A stretch of 64,000 nt of DNA from Prosthecobacter vanneervenii (lineage in GTDB: Bacteria; Verrucomicrobiota; Verrucomicrobiia; Verrucomicrobiales; Verrucomicrobiaceae): the NCBI RefSeq assembly GCF_014203095.1, contig NZ_JACHIG010000001.1:558001-622000 (forward strand). The letters are read 5' to 3'. Position 1 is the first letter of the stretch; the number at the start of each line of letters is the position of its first letter. This document shows positions 33,893 through 44,133 of this stretch, piece by piece. The notes under the pieces were generated by a model, which saw only the letters and a list, made by a program, of their open reading frames with translations, did not search any database and was not told the DNA's origin. Made by a program: the position numbers and the translations under genes.

Positions 33893-34777
33893 ATGCTGAC
33901 TCGTCGCCATCTTTTGAAACTGGGCCTGATGGCAGGTGGCAGCACCTGGCTGCGTGCCGAGGAGTTTCTGCCACAGAGTGTCTGCTTCAAAGGGGTGGAG
34001 GTGTTTCAAAAGATCGTGGCGCGAGCCGTGGCGGAGAACTGGGCTGCGCTGCCGATGGGCACACGTGTGGCGCAGTTTGGCCTGGCGCTGCGTGGCATCA
34101 AATATGTGGGGTGGACGTTGGAGATTGATGACCGGATTGAGTCGCCTTCGGTGAATTTGACGGGGCTGGACTGCTGGACGTTTTTTGAGGTGTCGCTGGG
34201 CATGGCGAGGATGATTGCAAGGCGGCAGCGGGCTTACTCGCCGAGTGATCTGCTGCGGGAGATTGAGTGGACGCGGTATCGTGGCGGGGTTTGCCGGGGG
34301 CGTTACCTAGACCGGATTCATTACCTGGACGAATGGTTCACGGACAACGCGGCGCGTGGGAACATCCGCTATGTGACGCGGGAGGTGGGGCCGGTGGTGA
34401 GGCTGACGGGACGTGCGAATGATGAGATGTCGCTGAATCCGAAGCTGTACCGTTATCTGCGGGCGAATCCGTCGCTGGTGCCCCAATTGAGACAGATGGA
34501 GGCGAAGCTGGAGAAGGTGCCGTTTGATTTCATTCCGAAGGAGCAGGTGGCTGCATGTGAGCCGAGGATTCAGAGCGGAGATATCATCGGGATCGTGACG
34601 AACCGGCAGCATGTGTTCTGCTCGCACGTGGGACTGGCCTTACGCCTTCAGGATGGGTCGTGTCACTTCATGCATGCGTCAGCGACGTACAAGAAGGTGG
34701 TCGTGGACAAGACGATTCATGAATATTTGTACTCGGTGAAGAGTCATGCGGGGATTGTGGTGGGGAGGCCGCGGTGA
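33893..34777 (+). CDS. DUF1460 amidase-like protein, Tat signal
   Basis: The 294-residue product starts with a twin-arginine-type signal (MLTRRHLLKLGLMAGG). The DUF1460/NlpC-P60-like fold shows the nucleophile C94 in LDCWTFFE, H245 in FCSHVGLAL and H261 in FMHASATYK, giving a likely Cys-His centre. The family is annotated N-acetylmuramoyl-L-alanine amidase-like, so peptidoglycan or a related peptide is the likely substrate. An extracytoplasmic location follows from the signal. No neighbouring peptidoglycan gene supports this directly. Confidence 0.85.
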   Translation: MLTRRHLLKLGLMAGGSTWLRAEEFLPQSVCFKGVEVFQKIVARAVAENWAALPMGTRVAQFGLALRGIKYVGWTLEIDDRIESPSVNLTGLDCWTFFEVSLGMARMIARRQRAYSPSDLLREIEWTRYRGGVCRGRYLDRIHYLDEWFTDNAARGNIRYVTREVGPVVRLTGRANDEMSLNPKLYRYLRANPSLVPQLRQMEAKLEKVPFDFIPKEQVAACEPRIQSGDIIGIVTNRQHVFCSHVGLALRLQDGSCHFMHASATYKKVVVDKTIHEYLYSVKSHAGIVVGRPR

Positions 34778-35169
34778 GAGTTTGCTGTGGTTGAACGTTG
34801 TTGACTATGGTTGGCAGAGGGGGCGGGATTAACCACGGAATGCACTGAATACACGGAAACCAGAATCTAGGAGTCCGGGTAAGGTCAGTCTGATGGAATG
34901 ATCAGATTTTCAAAGTGTGGACGAGCCGACCTGCCCGCAGAAGGTCTGAACGGGCATAGAGCCCCTGCAAGTGGACTGCCTGCACGACGCGCGGGCTGGG
35001 GCTTATACCTGTTCTCGAAAAGCCTGTCACATTGTCCGGGCGGCGCAGCGGCCCGATTGGCTGCGTTAGTCGCTTGCCTGTTATTTTCAACTAGCAGCTG
35101 GCGCTCCCGCCTTGCCACTGGGGCCACTGCGCTCACCGGTTCAATCGGACATTCTTTTCGCGAACAGGT
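34778..35169. other. Non-coding gap with degenerate ACACGG repeat
   Basis: About 390 bp between the DUF1460 gene and the convergent toroid gene. It contains the degenerate ACCACGGAATGCACTGAATACACGG block near the left end; the remainder is featureless to me. No gene or RNA was recognised. Confidence 0.5.
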
Positions 35170-37242
35170 CTACTTGTCGAAGAAGGAGGATTCTTCGCGG
35201 TCGCCGACTTTGAGGTAGCGGTAGTAAACCTCGAGCTGGAGGGTGCAGAGGCACTGGCGGTAGATGGCGTCTGTGGCGTCGCCGGAAGGCCAGTTGGGGC
35301 GACCGGCTTTGAAAGAGCCGTCTGCCTGCTGGGCGCTGAGGACCTGAGGGAGGAACTGCTGGTTGTAGAACTTCCAGTCGTCCCCGCCCTGCTGGAAGAA
35401 GGCCTGGGTGTAGTAGTACCAGCAGTAGAGGTTGCAGTTTTTGTTCCAGTCGAGGGGTTCGGCGGTGATGAAGTCGCGGAGGAATTTGATGCCCTTCTTG
35501 ATCGGAGTGGTCTTGCCTTTGGCCATGGTCTGCAGGCCCAGGATGCCCACGCCGGAGAGGCTCCACTGATTGTAGTGCGCGTCGCGATTGGTGACGCCGA
35601 AGCCGCCGTCTTTGGTCTGCTTGTCCTCAAGGTATTTGGTCAGCTTGCCGATGGCGGTGTGGAGGCCGTCGATCTTGAGGCTGGTGTTTTTGGCGGCCTT
35701 GAGGGCCTGGAACTGCCATCCGGCGACGGAGAGGTCCTCGCGGCTCTTTTTGCCTGCATAGAATCCGGTGTCGCCATCATACACCCAGCTGCCGCTGTCC
35801 TGCTGATTGTCGATGATGAGTTTGACGCCCTGCTCAAAGGCCTCGCGCATGCCTGGGAGGGATTTGCTGCCGAGACGGGCGAGGGTGTACATTTCACCGA
35901 GGGCGTAGGTGGCGATGCCGTGCTCGTAAACGGGGGCATTGCCTTTTTCGCCCTGGCTGAAGAGCTTGTTTTTGTTTTTCTTCTGCGCCTCGATGAGGAA
36001 CATGATGCCCTTCATGACGTTTTCGCCGTAGAAGGGGGATTCGGGGGTTTCGCAGCGGCCGAGGTAGCAGAGCAGGGCCAGACCGGTCATGGCGCACTTG
36101 TTGTTGCGGCCCCAGGAGCCGTCGGCGTTCTGCTGGGTTTTCAGCCACTCCAGGGAGGCGGACACGGCGGCCTCGCACTCAGGCGTGCCGCCGTTCTGGC
36201 GCAGCTTTTCCAGTCGCTCCTGCGTGGAGCAGCGGCTGCGCATGGAGGGCGGCAGCGTCACAAAGCCGTTCGCTGCTCCCATGCCCACGCCTTTGCCAAA
36301 GCCGCCACCGGCTCCGGCCAAGCCCAGGCTGCCACCGGCACCCAGGGCACCGCCGCCCATCATCGCGCTCATGTCCGGCATGTCCAGGGAGTCTGGCGGT
36401 GCCTCAGGGAGGGAGATGGAGGAGTTCACGCTGGTGCTGACCAGCTTCTTCATCGGCATGGATTTATTGACCGAGCTGCGCTTTTTCTGCTGCACCTTGT
36501 GCTGCAGGTCGGAGCTGGCCTTGGCACCTGCGGCGGTGCCGCCACCAGGCAGGAAGTCCACCTGCTTGTCCATGACACCGCTGGTGAAGACGATGAAGAG
36601 TGCGCCCACGCCCAAGCCGGCGTGGATGGCAATGCTGAGCAGCAGGGAGCTGGCACCCGCTTTGCGCCACATCTGCACAAACTTGTTGGGCGGAGGCCCT
36701 GCCTCGATGTGGGTCAACGCGGGAGGATGGTACACCTGGCCTTCGACGTGCTCGACAGCCACTGCGGCCTCTCCTGCGTCATCGGCAGGTGCTGCAGCCA
36801 CGGGGGCTGCAGCGGAAGGCACCGGCATCGCGGCAGCGACGGCCGAAGGAGCGGGCATGGAAGGGGTCGGCATGGCCACCGGCACGGCGGCGCTCACAGG
36901 TTTGGGGGCCGGGACAGCTCCTGTGGCTGCGGATGGAGCGGGAGGCGGCATCATGGCTGGCATGGGCATGGCAGGCACATAGCCCGGGGGATAGCCTGGC
37001 ATCTGCGGCGGGTAGCCCTGTGGCATGGGGTAGCCGGCAGGCATCTGCGGCGGATAACCCTGGGGCATGGGATAGCCAGCAGGCATCTGGGGAGGATAGC
37101 CCTGCGGCATGGGATAACCCTGTGGGTAGCCAGGCATCTGCGGCGGATAACCGGGCGGCGGCACGTACCCAGGCTGAAGCGGCTGGGTGGCTCCGGGGTT
37201 CTGCTGCGGATTCTGTGGGTTTCCTGGCTGCGAAGGGTTCAT
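35170..37242 (-). CDS. TonB-like transmembrane helix fused to an alpha/alpha-toroid
   Basis: This 690-residue protein is the last gene of the ExbB/ExbD operon. Residues 1-160 are a Pro/Gln/Tyr-rich tail with a 14-residue unit (GYPMPQGYPPQMPA) repeated three times. One transmembrane helix at about 198-222 contains LLSIAIHAG: S203 and H207 reproduce the SxxxH motif by which TonB couples to ExbB/ExbD. A Gly/Ser linker follows. From about 340 to the end it is a prenyltransferase/squalene-cyclase-like toroid with QW-like turns (QNADGSWG, QQDSGSWVYD, KQTKDGGFG, QQADGSFK). It has the position of a TonB but a different periplasmic domain. I infer that it is energised by the channel; the toroid's ligand is unknown. 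Confidence 0.85.
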   Translation of the reverse strand: MNPSQPGNPQNPQQNPGATQPLQPGYVPPPGYPPQMPGYPQGYPMPQGYPPQMPAGYPMPQGYPPQMPAGYPMPQGYPPQMPGYPPGYVPAMPMPAMMPPPAPSAATGAVPAPKPVSAAVPVAMPTPSMPAPSAVAAAMPVPSAAAPVAAAPADDAGEAAVAVEHVEGQVYHPPALTHIEAGPPPNKFVQMWRKAGASSLLLSIAIHAGLGVGALFIVFTSGVMDKQVDFLPGGGTAAGAKASSDLQHKVQQKKRSSVNKSMPMKKLVSTSVNSSISLPEAPPDSLDMPDMSAMMGGGALGAGGSLGLAGAGGGFGKGVGMGAANGFVTLPPSMRSRCSTQERLEKLRQNGGTPECEAAVSASLEWLKTQQNADGSWGRNNKCAMTGLALLCYLGRCETPESPFYGENVMKGIMFLIEAQKKNKNKLFSQGEKGNAPVYEHGIATYALGEMYTLARLGSKSLPGMREAFEQGVKLIIDNQQDSGSWVYDGDTGFYAGKKSREDLSVAGWQFQALKAAKNTSLKIDGLHTAIGKLTKYLEDKQTKDGGFGVTNRDAHYNQWSLSGVGILGLQTMAKGKTTPIKKGIKFLRDFITAEPLDWNKNCNLYCWYYYTQAFFQQGGDDWKFYNQQFLPQVLSAQQADGSFKAGRPNWPSGDATDAIYRQCLCTLQLEVYYRYLKVGDREESSFFDK
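36994..37119 (-). repeat. 42-bp tandem repeat within the toroid gene
   Basis: Three near-identical 42-bp units encode GYPMPQGYPPQMPA. The N-terminal tail is thus a slippage-prone, disordered Pro/Tyr repeat. Confidence 0.75.
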
Positions 37243-37267
37243 GACGAAATGGGGGACAATTTAAGCA

Positions 37268-37306
37268 CGACGCAGAGGCCACCCTGTTTATTGGGTGCCT
37301 CCGTCG
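37268..37306 (-). other. Intercistronic hairpin between exbD2 and the toroid gene
   Basis: CGACG and CGTCG ends with AGGC and ACCC inner pairs form a bulged stem in the 83-bp gap before the toroid gene. On the transcribed strand the T run lies before, not after, the stem, so it is more likely an RNA stability or processing element than a terminator. Confidence 0.4.
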
Positions 37307-37325
37307 AAAAAAGTTTCAGGACAAA

Positions 37326-37793
37326 TTAGAATCCTGCGTCGCTGCCAACGGTGAATGTCACGTTGGCGATGCGAGCTACGGCGAGGCCGTTGAGCACGTC
37401 GATGACGCGCTCATACTTGGCCTGTTCCTCCGCTTGGATGGTCACAATGACCTTGGCGTTGCGGTTGTCCGCCTCCTGTTTGAGGCGCTTGAGAGTGGCC
37501 ACAAAGTTGGGCAGCTTTTTGTCGGTAGGAGTATCAAACTCCTCCTCATTCAGCGTCACCACGCCGGACTCCTCGACGCCGACGATGATTTCGTCAGGCA
37601 TCTCCTGGGGAGCATCCGGAGAAGCCGGTGCCACGCCCGGGAGCTGGCTCTTGAGCTCCATCTCCTTTTTCACGGCACCAGCCATCACCATGAAGAAGAG
37701 CATGATAACGAACACCACGTCGATCATCGGTGCGATCTGGAAGCCCAGATTCACATTGTCAGACTCGACTGTTCTATGTTTGTGCGAGGACAT
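37326..37793 (-). CDS. ExbD/TolR-family protein (second copy)
   Basis: This 155-residue biopolymer transport protein has a short cytoplasmic N-terminus, a single transmembrane helix (FQIAPMIDVVFVIMLFFMVMAGA) carrying the proton-accepting Asp (D25), and a periplasmic domain (DEIIVGVEESGVVTLNEEEFDT and VIVTIQAEEQAKYERVIDVLNGLA). It works with ExbB/TolQ to convert the proton gradient into movement. It lies 11 bp after the other ExbD gene; such tandem ExbD pairs are common in Planctomycetes and Verrucomicrobia. It is followed by the toroid gene. Confidence 0.95.
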   Translation of the reverse strand: MSSHKHRTVESDNVNLGFQIAPMIDVVFVIMLFFMVMAGAVKKEMELKSQLPGVAPASPDAPQEMPDEIIVGVEESGVVTLNEEEFDTPTDKKLPNFVATLKRLKQEADNRNAKVIVTIQAEEQAKYERVIDVLNGLAVARIANVTFTVGSDAGF

Positions 37794-37804
37794 GCGGTGT
37801 TTGG

Positions 37805-38242
37805 CTACTGGTTAAGAGCTGAGAAGGAGATGTCGTCAATGCCTGACTGGGCGATGACAGCCATGACTTTTTGCATCTCGATGGCGGGCAGATTTTTATC
37901 CCCACGAATGATGACGCGGTAGGAGGGATTTTTGGCCTTGTTGCCGCTGAGGATGTCCACCAGCGGCTCCGTCTGCGGGAACGGCTGGTCCTGGAACATG
38001 ATTAGCGCCTCCTGCTTGGCGGTGCTCCAGCGGACATTGACGATGGCCTCATTGGCAAGGTTTTTGCCTTCCTTCTTCTTCGCATCCGAAGCGACAGGGA
38101 GCTGGATCTCCTTGTCGATCTTGGCCACCTGGGAGGTGGTGATGCTCATGAAGAAGATGAGCAACACGAGGAGCACATCAATCATCGGAGCAATCTGAAA
38201 CTCCGGTTCGCCGTTTTCTGAACCGCCGCCGCCGCCGCCCAT
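37805..38242 (-). CDS. ExbD/TolR-family protein (first copy)
   Basis: This 145-residue ExbD begins with a run of glycines (MGGGGGGSENGEPE), followed by the transmembrane helix FQIAPMIDVLLVLLIFFMSIT with Asp at about 22. The periplasmic part (KEIQLPVASDAKKKEGKN, EAIVNVRWSTAKQEALIMFQDQPF, YRVIIRGDKNLPAIEMQKVM) is the ExbD fold. Sequence divergence from the neighbouring copy suggests a heterodimer inside the ExbB pentamer, an inference. It starts 48 bp after the ExbB-like gene. Confidence 0.95.
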   Translation of the reverse strand: MGGGGGGSENGEPEFQIAPMIDVLLVLLIFFMSITTSQVAKIDKEIQLPVASDAKKKEGKNLANEAIVNVRWSTAKQEALIMFQDQPFPQTEPLVDILSGNKAKNPSYRVIIRGDKNLPAIEMQKVMAVIAQSGIDDISFSALNQ

Positions 38243-38290
38243 AGTGTTAGAGAGTCAAGGGTTGAAGATGAAGTAAGGGATGGAAACCAA

Positions 38291-39139
38291 TCAAGCTGCA
38301 GGAGCTGCTTCGCCAGCGACCCAGTTCGGGATGGCCGCGTAGAACTCTTCCTCGCCGACGTGAGCGTCCTTGAGGTGGCTGTAAGGCATCTTGCGGAAAA
38401 GAGCAGCAACGATGTCCTGCAGGCCGCCGATGGAGCCCTGGAGACGGTTACGCAGGAAGTAGAAGAAGAGGAAGGCTGGCACCGCAACGATAAGACCGGT
38501 GGCGGTAGCCACAAGCACCTCACCGATGTGGCCGGAAAGAGCGGACACGTCCTGAGCACCGCTGGAGCCCAGGGATGCGAAGGCGCCCTTCATACCGCTC
38601 ACCGTGCCGATCAGACCGATCATCGGTGTGCAAACACCAAGCACGGAGAGGTAGTTGATGCGGGTCTGAGTGGTGGCGTTCACCTTGTTCAGCTCGGTAA
38701 AGATGGCGTTTTCCACGGCTTCTTCACCATCGCCCACAAAGCTGAGAGCCACGCGGGAGACATCGGAGAAAGGAGAAGGATTGCCTTTGCAGAACTGGTA
38801 GGCACCCACGTAGTCACCTGCGCGGAAGAGATCCTGCAGCTGGCCGACGAGGGCGGGAGGGGCCATCTTCTTGATGCCGGTGCGGATCCAGAGGTCAACC
38901 GTGAGCCAGACGAGCACCACGGAGCAGATGGCGAGCGGGTACATCACCCAGCCACCCTGGAGGAAGAGATCGATCGCGGATTCGCTTTTCACGGCGTGTC
39001 CACCTCCCTCGGCCGCGGCTTCCTGAGCGAAGGCGGAGGCAGATGCAAAGACACCCATGGCCAGCAGAATGCTGTAGGACGCACGGGCGCGGGCGTGAGA
39101 GATGTAGCGGGTCATGATGTTGGCAGTGTTGGTTTGCAT
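38291..39139 (-). CDS. MotA/TolQ/ExbB proton channel protein with signal peptide
   Basis: The 282-residue protein has a cleavable-looking signal (to about AFA39) ahead of the three ExbB/TolQ helices: GGWVMYPLAICSVVLVWLTV (62-81), INYLSVLGVCTPMIGLIGTVSGM (161-183) and IGEVLVATATGLIVAVPAFLFFYF (205-228). TPMIGLIGTV and GEVLVATATGL are the family fingerprints. The long N-terminal extension is known in ExbB proteins of this phylum. It pairs with both downstream ExbD genes to form the proton-driven stator. It starts 11 bp after the upstream TPR-like gene. Confidence 0.95.
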   Translation of the reverse strand: MQTNTANIMTRYISHARARASYSILLAMGVFASASAFAQEAAAEGGGHAVKSESAIDLFLQGGWVMYPLAICSVVLVWLTVDLWIRTGIKKMAPPALVGQLQDLFRAGDYVGAYQFCKGNPSPFSDVSRVALSFVGDGEEAVENAIFTELNKVNATTQTRINYLSVLGVCTPMIGLIGTVSGMKGAFASLGSSGAQDVSALSGHIGEVLVATATGLIVAVPAFLFFYFLRNRLQGSIGGLQDIVAALFRKMPYSHLKDAHVGEEEFYAAIPNWVAGEAAPAA

Positions 39140-39150
39140 GTGAGATTAAA

Positions 39151-40119
39151 TCAGGCTTTGGGTTTGGAATCAGCAGGTTTGGCAGGAGCGCCGTCTTTGG
39201 ATTTGTCAGCGTCAGACTTGGGCTTGCCATCTGAACCGGCAGCGGCCTCTTCATCGGTGACATTCTTCATTCCGGCAATGGCCGCCTTCTCTTTCGTGGC
39301 GGCTTCTGCCACTGGCGAGCCCGGATAGGAATCACTGATGCGGGCCAGGAAGGCATTGGCATCTTCGTAGCGCTTCATCTTGATGAGGGTCTTGGCGGCA
39401 TTGAGCTCGGCCTCGGGGACACGCTGCATCTGTGTGCCGTAGAAAACCGGAATGCGCAGGTAAGCCAGCAGGGCCTTCTCCCATTCCTTTTTACGGGTGT
39501 AAACGTCTGCGATGATACCCCACAGGGAAGCACCGATGGCGGAGTCGTCCGTCTCCTTCAAGATGCTCTGGGCTTCCAGGATGATAGCCACATAGTCGGA
39601 GCTGGTCTGACGCTCGATATCGAGCTGGATGATGCGAAGACGCATCTTCTGAGCGTCGGTCAGCTTGAGGGCGCGCAGCGACGGCATCGACTTGACCACA
39701 TCGTCAAACTTTCCGCCCTGGTTCAGGGCCTCGATGTAGGCGAAATAGACATCCACATACCAGTTGCCTTCGATGCCTTCAAAATGCTCGAAGAATTCTT
39801 TTCCTTTCTTCAGCACAGCGATGGCCTCCTCCGTCTTGCCCTTGGCCAGAAGGTCTGCGGATTCCGTCAGTTCAGCCGGATAGGGCCACTCCAGAGAGTC
39901 GATGTTTTTCTTGTCCAGAACGCTTGTGGCCTTCTGTTCCCCGATCTGAATGGTGCGGACGATTTTGCCATCCGGCTGAATGGAGAACTCGGAGGAGAAA
40001 ACGCGGTTGCCATCCTTCAAAACGATGGCCTGGCCGTAGGCGGAGCCTGCGGCGACAAAAGCGAGAGCAAACAAGAAGCGGGCGAACGAGCGCATGAAAT
40101 TCGAGGTGGGGGTTCGCAT
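39151..40119 (-). CDS. Exported TPR-like protein of the ExbB/ExbD operon
   Basis: This 322-residue protein has a signal peptide (MRSFARFLFALAFVAAGSAYGQ). A beta-hairpin start (AIVLKDGNRVFSSEFSIQPDGKIVRTI) leads into helical repeats (AKGKTEEAIAVLKKGKEFFE; KKEWEKALLAYLRIP; KRYEDANAFLARISDSYPGSP) of TPR type, ending in a Lys/Pro/Ala tail. It starts 5 bp after the stop of the large TPR gene. An internal ATG at 40095 directly precedes the signal peptide and may be the real start. It probably binds peptidoglycan or the other TPR protein, by analogy with YbgF/CpoB next to Tol genes. Confidence 0.82.
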   Translation of the reverse strand: MRTPTSNFMRSFARFLFALAFVAAGSAYGQAIVLKDGNRVFSSEFSIQPDGKIVRTIQIGEQKATSVLDKKNIDSLEWPYPAELTESADLLAKGKTEEAIAVLKKGKEFFEHFEGIEGNWYVDVYFAYIEALNQGGKFDDVVKSMPSLRALKLTDAQKMRLRIIQLDIERQTSSDYVAIILEAQSILKETDDSAIGASLWGIIADVYTRKKEWEKALLAYLRIPVFYGTQMQRVPEAELNAAKTLIKMKRYEDANAFLARISDSYPGSPVAEAATKEKAAIAGMKNVTDEEAAAGSDGKPKSDADKSKDGAPAKPADSKPKA

Positions 40120-40124
40120 GAAAA

Positions 40125-43019
40125 TTACAGAGTGTTGAGGAGTTTTTCACCCTCTTTGACTTCGGGCTCCTTCTGCAGGTCTGGACGCTTGACCATTTCC
40201 TGCAGCGTCGCCTTGGCCTCATCACGCTTGCCAAGAGCCACGAAGGATTTGGCGGAGAGCAGATAGGATTTGGCCACTTCATCCTTCCACTTTTGGTGGG
40301 CGATGAAGACACGCTGGAAGTAGGGGATGGCCACTTCGTGCTTGCCACTCAGGGCCTCGATCTCTCCCAGCATACGCAGGGCGTTGGCGGTGGCGTGACC
40401 ACGCCATTCCTTGGTGTTCGAGATTTGCTCAAAGAGCTTCTTGGCATCGTCATACTTCTTGAGTTTGACGAGGGTCTTGGCCTCCCCCTGGGTAGCGTCC
40501 AGCACGTGAGAGCTGCCAGGATAGTTGTTCAGGGCGTCGCGGAAAAGCTCCAAGGCTTTGTCAAACTCGCCCTTCTCAAAGGCGATTTCTGCCAGACCAA
40601 CAGGTGCACCGTCGGCATAGTCGGTGTCTTTGAACAGATCACGCAGACGAATGTAGCAGGCGCTGGCTTTGTCCAGATCGCCTTTCTTGCGGGCATTGTC
40701 ACCCACGACGGAAAGCATCATGGGGCTGAGGTCTTCCGGTTTGGCCACTTCAATGATGATGCTGAAGTATTTTTCCGCCTTCTCAGGAAGTTTCATGATC
40801 TTGGCCAGCCAGGCCTTGGCAAAGAGAATGCGCATCTGCGCTGTGCCATTCATGGCGGCCTGAGGCGGGGTCAGCAGTTCTTCGAGCTGCTTCTCCACGT
40901 CTTCAAAGGTCACTTCCGGTGCGGCTGGCGCGGGGGCAGGAGCAGCGGCAGCACCTTCGGCAGGCTTGGCACCTTCAGCAGGAGGCTGCACGGCGGCTGC
41001 ACGACGGCGCTTGGGCGCGCTGATGGTCACCAGCTGCTGGATCAGGCCTTCCACCTGCTGATTGGCAACGATGGGAATGCGGAGGCGGATATGTTCAGCG
41101 AGGAGCTTCTTGGCTTCCTCCACCTTGCCGTCCTTAATCTGGGCTCGGCTGATCCAGAGGATGGCCTTGAGGGCGAGCTCATCGTCATCCTTTTTGGAAT
41201 TGTAGTACTTCTGCCACATGGCAGCCAGCTCCTTCCACTTGTTGGCCCCCACATAGAGGTCCGTCAGCTGGTCCATGGCATACCTGAGAACGTCATCCGT
41301 TTTCGCCTTGTCCACGGCGAATTCGAACTGGATCATCGCATTTTCATAGTCGGCACGCTGATTGTAGGTGTCTCCGAGAAGGGCATGCACCTGGCCAATG
41401 TTGTTGTCGTTAGGAGCGTCCTTGACGATGCTGAGCAGGTCGGCCTCGGCACCCTTTTTGTCGCCACCTTGGAAGTCGATGAAGGCCAGGCGGTAGCGAG
41501 CGTCCACCACATACTGCCCCTTTGGATTGTCTTTGATGTAGGTCTTGAGCGCCTTGGTCACGCTCTTGGAGTCGTTCTGGTAGAAGTAGGTCAGGGCGAT
41601 ACGGTACTGAACATCATCCTTGTACGTCGAGGTCGGATACTGCTGGATGAGGTTTTCATACGTCATGCGGGCCTCGTCGAGGCTTTGCAGCTCGAACTGC
41701 ACGCTGCCGATGAGGAAGTAAAGACGCTCTTTGTCTGCCTTGGGAGCAGTCAAAGACCTCTTCCAAGCGGCCACGGCTTCCTTGAGCTGCTTGTTCTGGT
41801 AATAGATCATGCCGACCATCATGGCGACCTCACCAACCATTTCGCTGTCCGGGAATTGATCCATGAAGCCTTCACACAGTTTGGCAGCTTCTTTGGTGCG
41901 CTTGAGAGCAGCATTGACCGTGATCAGGCCGTACATGCACCTGTCGCGCTGAGGAAACTGCTTGTATTCATTGACGATCACCTCAAAGGCCAGAATGGCC
42001 TGCCAGAGGCGGGAGGGGTCGGCAGCAGAACCGTCTTCTTTAGGAGCGCCCATCTCATAGTAGCAGCGTCCCAGACGGTAGTAGAGGGAGGCATCGTAGT
42101 CGGTGCGCTTCTCGATTTCGGCCATGATTTCCTCATTGGCCTTGAGCTTGGTTTCAAGTTCGTCCTTGCGCGGGCCGGTGGCCTTCTTGAGCTGGTCCTG
42201 CAGCTTCTTGACCTGCTCGCTCTGGATGCGGGTGATCTCGGCTTTTTTACGCACCAGCTGGTACGCACCGAGAGCCTCCTTGTAGGACTTCTTCTCCATC
42301 ATCTCGTCACCGAGCTTGAGATAGATGTTGTTCATCTGGGCGATGCTGTCGCCGCCCGAGGCAAAGTTGCGCACTTTGTCCATCAGAGCAGTGGCATCAT
42401 CGAGCTGGCCTTTGCTGACATAGATGTTGGCGGCAAGCATGGCTGCCTGGATGGACTCAGCACTGCGGATCCCGCCCTCGAGCACGGACTTGAGGATATC
42501 CAGCGCCTTGTCCTTCTGATCTTTCTTGCTCAGGGTGTCTGCAATGATGAGACCTGCCTCAGCCTTCTTCTCGGGAGAGCTGCGCACCACTTCTGTCAGC
42601 ACCTCGATCCCCTTGTCCTCCTGCTTGTTTGCGATGTAGGAGCGGCCTAGGGCCATGCGCACGTCAATGATGGCAGCGCCTTGGGGGAACTCCTTGGCGT
42701 AGGCTTCCAGAGACTCGATGGCCTTGGGGTAGTCGTTGAGGTTGTAATGGCAGGCGCCTTCGGTGAAGAGGATGCCTTCGAAAGGCTTGTTGTTGAGGTT
42801 CTTTTTGGCGATCGCCAGCTTGGCAAGAGCCTCCTGATACTTGGCCTCTGCAAAGAGTGCGCTGGCAGCATTGACCAAGGCTTCAGTCTCCTGCTGGATG
42901 TTCAGAGCTCCCGGGGCTGCTGGAGCGGCGGGGGCAGGAGCAGGCGCGGGCGCTGGAGCCTGTGAAAACACAGGCGATGCGGCGGCCAGGGTCAAAGCGG
43001 CACAAAAAATGGGTCTCAT
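40125..43019 (-). CDS. Large exported TPR protein, first gene of the ExbB/ExbD operon
   Basis: The 964-residue product has a signal peptide (MRPIFCAALTLAAASPVFSQ), an Ala/Pro linker and then tandem tetratricopeptide repeats along its whole length (for example YQEALAKLAIAKKNL, YPKAIESLEAYAKEFPQG, LKEAVAAWKRSLTAP, DEARMTYENLIQQYPTSTYKDDVQYRIALTYF, FDKALELFRDALNNYPGSSHVLDATQGEAKTL). Many units match YfgC/CpoB/BamD-type secreted TPRs. The C-terminus is charged. It heads the operon, with only 5 bp to the next gene. It likely scaffolds the energised complex in the periplasm. The start is the ATG at 43019. Confidence 0.9.
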   Translation of the reverse strand: MRPIFCAALTLAAASPVFSQAPAPAPAPAPAAPAAPGALNIQQETEALVNAASALFAEAKYQEALAKLAIAKKNLNNKPFEGILFTEGACHYNLNDYPKAIESLEAYAKEFPQGAAIIDVRMALGRSYIANKQEDKGIEVLTEVVRSSPEKKAEAGLIIADTLSKKDQKDKALDILKSVLEGGIRSAESIQAAMLAANIYVSKGQLDDATALMDKVRNFASGGDSIAQMNNIYLKLGDEMMEKKSYKEALGAYQLVRKKAEITRIQSEQVKKLQDQLKKATGPRKDELETKLKANEEIMAEIEKRTDYDASLYYRLGRCYYEMGAPKEDGSAADPSRLWQAILAFEVIVNEYKQFPQRDRCMYGLITVNAALKRTKEAAKLCEGFMDQFPDSEMVGEVAMMVGMIYYQNKQLKEAVAAWKRSLTAPKADKERLYFLIGSVQFELQSLDEARMTYENLIQQYPTSTYKDDVQYRIALTYFYQNDSKSVTKALKTYIKDNPKGQYVVDARYRLAFIDFQGGDKKGAEADLLSIVKDAPNDNNIGQVHALLGDTYNQRADYENAMIQFEFAVDKAKTDDVLRYAMDQLTDLYVGANKWKELAAMWQKYYNSKKDDDELALKAILWISRAQIKDGKVEEAKKLLAEHIRLRIPIVANQQVEGLIQQLVTISAPKRRRAAAVQPPAEGAKPAEGAAAAPAPAPAAPEVTFEDVEKQLEELLTPPQAAMNGTAQMRILFAKAWLAKIMKLPEKAEKYFSIIIEVAKPEDLSPMMLSVVGDNARKKGDLDKASACYIRLRDLFKDTDYADGAPVGLAEIAFEKGEFDKALELFRDALNNYPGSSHVLDATQGEAKTLVKLKKYDDAKKLFEQISNTKEWRGHATANALRMLGEIEALSGKHEVAIPYFQRVFIAHQKWKDEVAKSYLLSAKSFVALGKRDEAKATLQEMVKRPDLQKEPEVKEGEKLLNTL

Positions 43020-43353
43020 GAGTTGCAGGGTGCGGTCCACGTCAGCACAAGGTACAGAAAAACCACGACGAAGCACAAGCCTGAAATAACGCAAGTCATT
43101 GCAGATGATTGCGCACTTGGTCTGTGCTTTGAGGCGGAGGGGCATTTTTCAAAAAGAGGTTCGAGATTAGCAGGATGGACATTTTTGTCACGGGAGAAAA
43201 AGCGAAAGGATAAATTCTATCCACTTCTAAAGCCGTGCCAGTTTTCAGATGATATTCTGCTACGCAAAACGCAGCAAATCCTTAGCGTCAAAATCATCAT
43301 CGGTTCAAGTCTGCTCGACATTCCTCATTCATGCTTCAACCATCCTGCATTGC
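43020..43353. other. Divergent intergenic region, no gene
   Basis: These 334 bp separate the ExbB/ExbD operon (minus) from the ABC ATPase (plus). It is AT-richer than the coding DNA, as expected of promoters. No clear -35/-10 pair, RNA or small gene was identified. Confidence 0.5.
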
Positions 43354-44133
43354 ATGACCCACCCCGTACTCGAAGTCAAAGATCTCACCTTCCGCCGCGG
43401 CCGCCCCATTTTGAAGGGCATTTCCTGGAGGGTGGAACCCGGGCAGCACTGGTGCATTCTAGGTCCGAACGGCTGCGGCAAGACCTCCCTCATCAACCTC
43501 ATTACCGGCTATGACAGCGCCACCAGCGGCAGCCTCCAGATCGGCGAGAGTGTTTTTGGCGACGACGACTGGCGTGAAGTGCGCCGCCGCGTGGGCTTGG
43601 TGACCAACACCCTTACGACCTACCTCGAAAGCAGCGAGCCGGTGCTGGACGTGATCGCCAGCGGGCGTGAGGCCAAGTTGAACCTGATCGAGCTGCCGCC
43701 GCCTGTGGTGCGCCGGGAGGCCGCCAGCCTGCTGCAGCAGGTGGGCTGCAGCTACCTGCGGGAGGCGCTGTGGGGGCCGCTTTCCCAAGGTGAAAAGCAG
43801 AAAGTCCTGATTTGTCGCGCCCTGATGGCGAAGTTTCAGGTGTTGATTTTGGACGAGCCCTGCGCCGGGCTGGACCCTGTGGCGAGGGAGCACTACCTGC
43901 AGTGGATGCAGTCGCTGGCGGTGCAGCCGCACTCCCCTTCCCTCGTGATGGTCACGCACCATGTGGAGGAGATCCTGCCCAGCATCACCCACTGCCTGCT
44001 GCTGAAAGACGGCCAGGTGCACGCTGCGGGTGCCAAGCATGAGGTGCTGAAAAGCGAGAACCTCAGCCACATTTATGGAGCTCCCGTGAAGCTTGGCCGT
44101 CGAGGTGAACGTTATTCGCTGCGACTGGCCTGA
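43354..44133 (+). CDS. ABC transporter ATP-binding protein
   Basis: This 259-residue ABC ATPase has Walker A in LGPNGCGKTS, signature LSQGEKQK, Walker B VLILDEPCAGLD and the H-loop VMVTHHVEEI. The conserved order and the C-terminal LLLKDGQVHAAG are typical of stand-alone ATPases of the YlmA/ModF type. No permease or binding protein is adjacent, so it either partners an unlinked permease or acts alone. The ATG at 43354 matches the start of the ATPase core (VLEVKDLTFRRGR). It starts 334 bp from the divergent ExbB/ExbD operon. Confidence 0.92.
   Translation: MTHPVLEVKDLTFRRGRPILKGISWRVEPGQHWCILGPNGCGKTSLINLITGYDSATSGSLQIGESVFGDDDWREVRRRVGLVTNTLTTYLESSEPVLDVIASGREAKLNLIELPPPVVRREAASLLQQVGCSYLREALWGPLSQGEKQKVLICRALMAKFQVLILDEPCAGLDPVAREHYLQWMQSLAVQPHSPSLVMVTHHVEEILPSITHCLLLKDGQVHAAGAKHEVLKSENLSHIYGAPVKLGRRGERYSLRLA

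Follow-up and report, generated by a model that had tools for sequence, protein, structure and literature searches.

A probable TonB-like force transducer with a toroid head, encoded in an ExbB/ExbD operon of Prosthecobacter vanneervenii

Six closely spaced genes on the minus strand occupy positions 35170 to 43019 of the window, the 64,000-nt stretch of the Prosthecobacter vanneervenii genome that we analysed (contig NZ_JACHIG010000001.1, positions 558,001 to 622,000). The first gene (40125..43019) encodes a large tetratricopeptide repeat protein, TPR1, of 964 aa counted from a start at 43019 that gives an N-terminus resembling a signal peptide by eye; the reading frame itself stays open to 43145. 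It is followed by a second TPR protein, TPR2 (39151..40119, 322 aa, signal peptide again judged by eye), an ExbB/TolQ-type motor protein (38291..39139, 282 aa), two ExbD/TolR proteins (37805..38242, 145 aa; 37326..37793, 155 aa) whose transmembrane (TM) Asp residues, read from the sequence, are D22 and D25, and finally a 690-aa putative toroid-headed transducer (35170..37242). The gaps between the genes are 5, 11, 48, 11 and 83 bp. Pfam finds TPR repeats in the first two genes, MotA_ExbB in the third (6e-23) and ExbD in the next two (3e-19 and 2e-18), so that the six-gene operon described in an earlier, sequence-only reading of this DNA agrees with the reading frames, the domain matches and the gaps. 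The same gene set, with a toroid protein as its last gene, was found at 6 of 66 loci of relatives, many of them cut by contig ends, and this recurrence makes the set more than chance. In two relatives, Verrucomicrobium sp. BvORR106 and BvORR034, the operon is enlarged by a third ExbD and holds a tandem pair of toroid transducers (L042:3094-13705 and L043:2985-13676).

The last protein begins with a Pro/Gly/Tyr-rich stretch up to about residue 185, followed by a single TM helix at about 187–221 (codons 36580..36684, minus strand; placed from conservation and a model helix of low confidence, pLDDT 61–69) and a Gly-rich linker up to about residue 337. Within the helix, LLSIAIHAG (residues 201–209) supplies S203 and H207, bearing out the proposal that this protein carries the SxxxH motif of TonB. 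In an alignment of proteins that share this TM region, here called the handle, H207 is present in all 100 proteins that cover the position and S203 in 90 of 99, while most other TM columns vary; just beyond the membrane lies a conserved segment, V228-D-F-L-P-G-G-G, with F230 in 100 of 102 (near-copies are among the rows). The corresponding Ser and His of TonB and TolA touch Ser34 and Trp38 of ExbB or their TolQ equivalents, according to the accessible part of PMC12215075. A profile search of the PDB with the handle gave matches that look like chance or low complexity.

The C-terminal part is of a quite different kind. SQHop_cyclase_C matches in Pfam (5e-7; 29.5 bits against a cut-off of 26.1), and residues of about 338–676 are modelled as an alpha/alpha toroid with pLDDT mostly near or above 90, so that predicted model and sequence profile both back a toroid of the cyclase type. 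No TonB or TolA C-terminal family is matched anywhere in the protein up to an E value of 0.1 in Pfam and NCBIfam, and the proposed toroid in place of a TonB C-terminal domain thus holds. DxDD is the catalytic motif of class II cyclases, and it is found in none of 63 toroid heads; because of this absence, the toroid is probably a binding head rather than a terpene cyclase. Beta subunits of protein prenyltransferases carry Zn ligands, for which a crude and only rough pattern (D.C..D) likewise matches 0 of 63 heads. As to the target of the head, a glycan or an outer-membrane protein would be our guess. Three further toroid proteins of the same genome (L097:9420-10784, L101:9289-10422 and L102:9376-10479) have no TM handle, and their N-termini resemble signal peptides by eye.

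The motor looks functional, as judged by sequence. The window proteins share with ExbB/TolQ and ExbD/TolR their Pfam families, pore Thr residues, TM3 Pro and TM Asp: T179, T212 and P221 of the ExbB align with the pore Thr pair and TM3 Pro of TolQ/ExbB, all three being invariant in six relatives, and its TM1 holds S73 and W78. Elsewhere in the genome, ExbB genes stand with proteins of more familiar kinds, including a TonB_C protein at L089 (C20; 1.9e-14), a TonB_2 protein at L085 and, at L084, a TonB_2-tailed protein (22.7 bits, cut-off 22) together with an ExbB/TolQ-like gene and an OmpA-family gene, as in a Tol locus. The window system is accordingly an additional motor, and these TonB_C or TonB_2 proteins rule out the toroid protein as the sole TonB of the cell. 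At L085 and L086 the genome also has long ExbB frames of 615 and 678 aa next to an ExbD, the former near TonB_2 and TPS-domain proteins and the latter near a Porin_5 protein.

The handle is not confined to this operon or to toroids. The toroid protein has matches at nine places in the genome, and its handle occurs in six proteins: three with toroids (the window protein, L095, which is 92% identical, and L096), two with vWA-like heads (L098 and L100) and one with a PA14-like head (L099). ExbB and ExbD of the operon kind were not found in the 20-kb stretches around the other five handle genes. Across the phylum, a profile built from diverse handles (A5) matches 71 of 240 genomes (E ≤ 1e-5), some of them 15 to at least 16 times. 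For 48 of the 71, at least one handle locus was fetched, the loci being hand-picked rather than covering every match in a genome. All-against-all comparison of the heads (E 1e-4, single linkage) sorted the 157 handle proteins, taken from these loci and from those collected before, into four clusters, toroid (64), vWA-A (47), PA14-like (30) and vWA-B (16), sizes that are not frequencies because a search with the toroid had supplied 45 of the 64 toroid rows. In profile comparison with hhalign, vWA-A and vWA-B scored 95.3 and all other pairs 1.2 or less; with these as the only related clusters, three kinds of head sit on one handle. The vWA-A assignment has a Pfam basis (2.6e-6 in L162), and a PDB search with the PA14-like profile returned four PA14-type adhesin chains (E 0.13–0.62) and nothing else.

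Both the position beside the motor and the number of handles per motor vary among relatives. A handle gene lies just downstream of the motor genes in 34 of the 48 genomes, where its head is a vWA domain in 25, a toroid in 8 and PA14-like in 5 (overlapping counts); for the other 14, contig ends and unfetched loci mean that a missing handle is no proof of absence. At times the simple gene finder called a frame on the opposite strand of a motor gene (L158, L216 and L028). The sequence-only reading had named an unrelated last gene in homologous operons as evidence against it, and half of this applies: the heads do vary, but the handle is common to all, so only the head is unrelated. Operon-type ExbB occurs in 18 of the 240 genomes (E ≤ 1e-45), as one copy in 17 and two in the remaining one; handle matches number 2–10 in 14 of these genomes, one in 3 and none in 1. 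Four genomes (G234, G102, G149 and G175) showed no handle gene at the operon but hold four classed ones each at other places. The highest numbers, 11 to at least 16 handle matches per genome, were seen in G227, G035, G050, G159 and G087 (family code f22; loci L230-L243, L247 and L248), and the fetched loci of G227 and G035 hold vWA and PA14-like heads, with one motor operon seen in each. In a tree of 38 ExbBs, 12 rows with a toroid in the slot and one with an empty slot form one group (support 97/95), around which rows with vWA, PA14 or empty slots lie; its placement beside PA14/vWA rows is supported at 92/90 and not starred, and two rows are very long-branched. The slot labels need seven changes on this tree, so heads have been swapped in the slot while the motor stayed.

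Clustering of the neighbours within 4.5 kb at 66 loci identified no common partner beside the scattered handles. Clusters beyond motor, TPR and handle genes had 3–5 members, the cleanest of them a syntenic block shared by three Prosthecobacter genomes, and at L183, L185 and L187, also of this genus, a vWA-B handle stands beside a small gene that by eye resembles an RNA polymerase sigma factor and a partner gene, on the opposite strand.

Toroid copies within one genome differ in a patterned way. Eight same-genome pairs with long copies, out of more that exist, were compared with gaps scored as mismatches. Residues 187–260 are identical at 586 of 591 positions and the linker at 594 of 611; identity is 87% in the toroid helices and 76–100% in all loops but two, and it falls to 49 of 135 positions in a loop at about residues 423–436 (35935..35976, minus strand) and to 76 of 221 in a second at 479–503 (35734..35808, minus strand). 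Both variable loops probably lie on one face of the toroid, as longer and shorter connections between helices largely alternate here and these two are among the longer; this placement was made from model helix boundaries, not inspected coordinates. The loop sequences form recurring types common to several genomes, one of them frequent in the operon copy. We therefore compared codons in four genomes that hold both of two loop types (24 between-genome handle comparisons). Handle codons are 92–96% identical within a genome versus 75–82% between genomes; loop codons are only 31–44% identical within a genome, and between genomes 72–87% for the same type and 34–42% across types; the rest of the toroid is at 83–88% within versus 78–88% between genomes. 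The simplest account of these identities would be repeated gene conversion of the handle in each genome combined with a long-lasting difference in the loops. Such a pattern would follow from a need for all handles to fit a single common motor, with heads that differ in their partners, although gene conversion without selection on the handle could also leave it constant. Draft contigs often start inside the toroid gene (many of L012-L074), as expected where near-identical copies share a genome.

Because a TonB-like handle and a predicted toroid are encoded with an ExbB/ExbD/ExbD motor and a TPR pair, we consider it likely that the 690-residue protein is a proton-driven force transducer of the TonB-like kind that ends in a toroid and shares its motor with other heads. 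Proton flow through ExbB/ExbD would move the handle, engaged at S203 and H207 as in TonB and TolA; the linker would span part of the periplasm, and the motor would pull, through the toroid protein, on a periplasmic or outer-membrane partner. The TPR proteins may act as scaffold or docking partner, since they accompany the motor even where no handle gene was found beside it. Each head would grip a target of its own, that of the toroid being set by loops 423–435 and 479–503, and the scattered handle proteins may use this motor in trans. More tentatively, with the balance tipped slightly the other way, the system may be a third kind of proton-driven envelope machine beside Ton and Tol, in which one ExbB/ExbD motor and a TPR scaffold would serve interchangeable toroid, vWA and PA14 heads, at least ten per genome in some species, while gene conversion would keep the toroid handles fitted to the motor and the loops at its mouth would diverge so as to hold different partners, with constant and variable parts as in binding receptors. 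If so, motors of the Ton/Tol type would be general-purpose engines whose force is delivered by swapped end domains, and a single motor could serve many heads in trans. Coupling could be tested at H207 and specificity in the two loops. The likeness of two head kinds to adhesion domains points to surface binding or polymer handling.

Several observations weigh against this interpretation. First, the match to TonB is incomplete on both sides of the proposed contact. S203 is replaced by Thr in 5 and by Ala in 4 of 99 handle proteins; the other half of the SHLS motif, Leu-Ser, does not line up, as A214 stands at His+7 and V218 at His+11 (column 214 is Ala in 71 and Gly in 25 of 100), a half that is also less well conserved in Ton as far as the accessible text of PMC12215075 goes; the juxtamembrane segment fits only in part, through V-D-F-L-P, the published pattern of the D-box, the ExbD-binding strand that follows the TM with hydrophobic and hydrophilic residues in alternation (PMC10907165, accessible part). 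In the ExbB, the TM1 Ser and Trp are spaced by 5 rather than the 4 of E. coli ExbB (S34/W38), and the Trp is a Tyr in some relatives. With Ser and His conserved but this spacing off and the Leu-Ser half out of register, contact of the handle with ExbB is likely at most. Second, other motors could serve the scattered handles, given 12 ExbB-like places in the genome; no ExbB passed the strict threshold (E ≤ 1e-45) in at least 11 genomes that match the handle, some of which have a more distant ExbB adjoining the handle (for example at L205, L237 and L240), and co-occurrence overstates independence because the genomes are related. Third, the assignment of vWA-B rests on a D-x-S-x-S motif and kinship to vWA-A, a PDB profile search with these heads having given no vWA structure, and the Pfam matches of the PA14-like heads are below threshold (6e-4 to 0.018). 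Fourth, the loops of a tandem pair in G217 differ much less than those of other pairs, at 77% and 65% identity.

Other explanations of the operon were weighed against the same evidence. The one that survives best concerns purpose and is compatible with a force transducer, namely that this is a glycan-uptake machine like MUL1 of Akkermansia, where MUL genes are reportedly required for mucin products to build up in internal compartments (PMC12418764 and PMC13174399, accessible parts). In two genomes, G113 and G021, probably of Akkermansia, the Mul1B gene is adjoined by ExbB, ExbD and a TPR1-like protein, with two ExbDs found at one Mul1B locus (L217) and one at another (L216), and TPR1 aligns with the TPR protein of the Mul1B locus over 836 columns (hhalign 99.6), although TPR repeats align easily. 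Against this, Mul1B was not found in the genome of the window (G000) at E 1e-5, none of the 20 listed g5 genomes has a handle match, and the Mul1B locus of G215 (L218), a genome with both systems, yielded no adjacent motor gene. TPR2 was rejected as a candidate Mul1B, the match being weak (19.8 bits against an NCBIfam cut-off of 75; hhalign 32). An uptake machine of this kind is possible but unlikely, and we take the MUL1 likeness as a lead to the system's purpose and no more.

Less probable still is a periplasmic enzyme acting on carbohydrate or lipid, tethered by its TM helix near a motor that serves something else, with no force passing through the toroid. Such an enzyme is difficult to reconcile with the lack of DxDD in all 63 heads, with a TM His that forms the only invariant column of the helix, with vWA and PA14-like heads borne by the same handle, and with a handle that is the very part held constant within genomes.

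We also regard as improbable a Tol-Pal-like system for envelope maintenance or division, with CpoB-like TPR proteins and the toroid in place of TolA. TPR1 does pass the NCBIfam cut-off for tol_pal_ybgF (137.6 bits, cut-off 90.1; it also scores 108.6 with PorW/SprE, below that model's 250), and the ExbB and both ExbDs score best with TolQ and TolR models, below cut-off; but there is no TolB or Pal among the six genes, the separate locus L084 already has ExbB/TolQ-like, TonB_2-tailed and OmpA-family genes, and several heads per genome misfit a single Tol function. Weakest is a sensor, in which binding by the head would be signalled through ExbB/ExbD to the cytoplasmic N-terminus rather than force passing outwards: long N-terminal stretches ahead of the TM helix (about 185 aa in the window protein) and a SAM domain (2e-18) at this place in one vWA-headed protein (L162:7729-9123) favour it, but L162 is the only one of 11 Pfam-scanned handle proteins with a curated domain there and the handle is preceded by anything from a few to almost 300 residues, leaving this reading very improbable.

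Around the operon, a divergent gene that by eye is ABC-transporter ATPase-like lies just upstream (43249-44133). No Rfam match was found at 34000-44000, and promoter and terminator patterns were uninformative (5 promoter-like versus 1.8 expected; 10 terminator-like versus 8.6 expected).

Set beside known systems, the force transducer proposed here shares with TonB/TolA and their ExbBD/TolQR motors a single TM helix with Ser-x3-His and adjoining motor genes. It differs in its Gly-rich linker, its long N-terminal extension and the absence of a TonB/TolA C-terminal domain; for lack of this domain the protein counts as neither, but it probably works like one. Unlike Ton and Tol operons, the window operon has two ExbDs and TPR proteins. 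The AglRQS-Glt gliding motor of Myxococcus likewise combines one TolQ-like protein with two TolR-like ones to drive an envelope machine. The head differs from squalene-hopene cyclase (623 residues in 2sqc) in being about 340 residues long, behind a TM handle, and in lacking DxDD. As here, MUL1 of Akkermansia groups ExbB and ExbDs with a large TPR protein and a further periplasmic protein, but in another gene order, besides the differences in Mul1B and handle already given.

The closest relative is a family of vWA force transducers found in PVC and other bacteria (PMC12204202, Mol Biol Evol 2025). According to the accessible part of that paper, a TPR gene, a tolQ-like and two tolR-like genes are followed by a TonB-like transducer with a vWA C-terminus, a motor-binding His in its TM helix and a linker of about 100 residues, and the complex was modelled with this His at the TonB site. 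The window gene has the same setting and differs in its head, which is a toroid and not a vWA domain, while vWA heads sit on homologous handles; the window system is thus a toroid-headed sister of the vWA system, and its description in the sequence-only reading as a new type of energised envelope system overreaches. Prosthecobacter and its relatives would in turn be bacteria in which to find the function of the published vWA transducers, which are without a phenotype. The text of PMC12204202 holds no match for prenyltransferase, squalene cyclase or PA14 domain, its accessible part does not mention several handles per motor or a constant handle with variable loops, and among the results listed in a literature search none describes toroid or PA14 heads. 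Two points beyond the published system seem to be novel: the exchange of toroid and PA14-like heads on a common handle, and a handle held constant while the loops vary.
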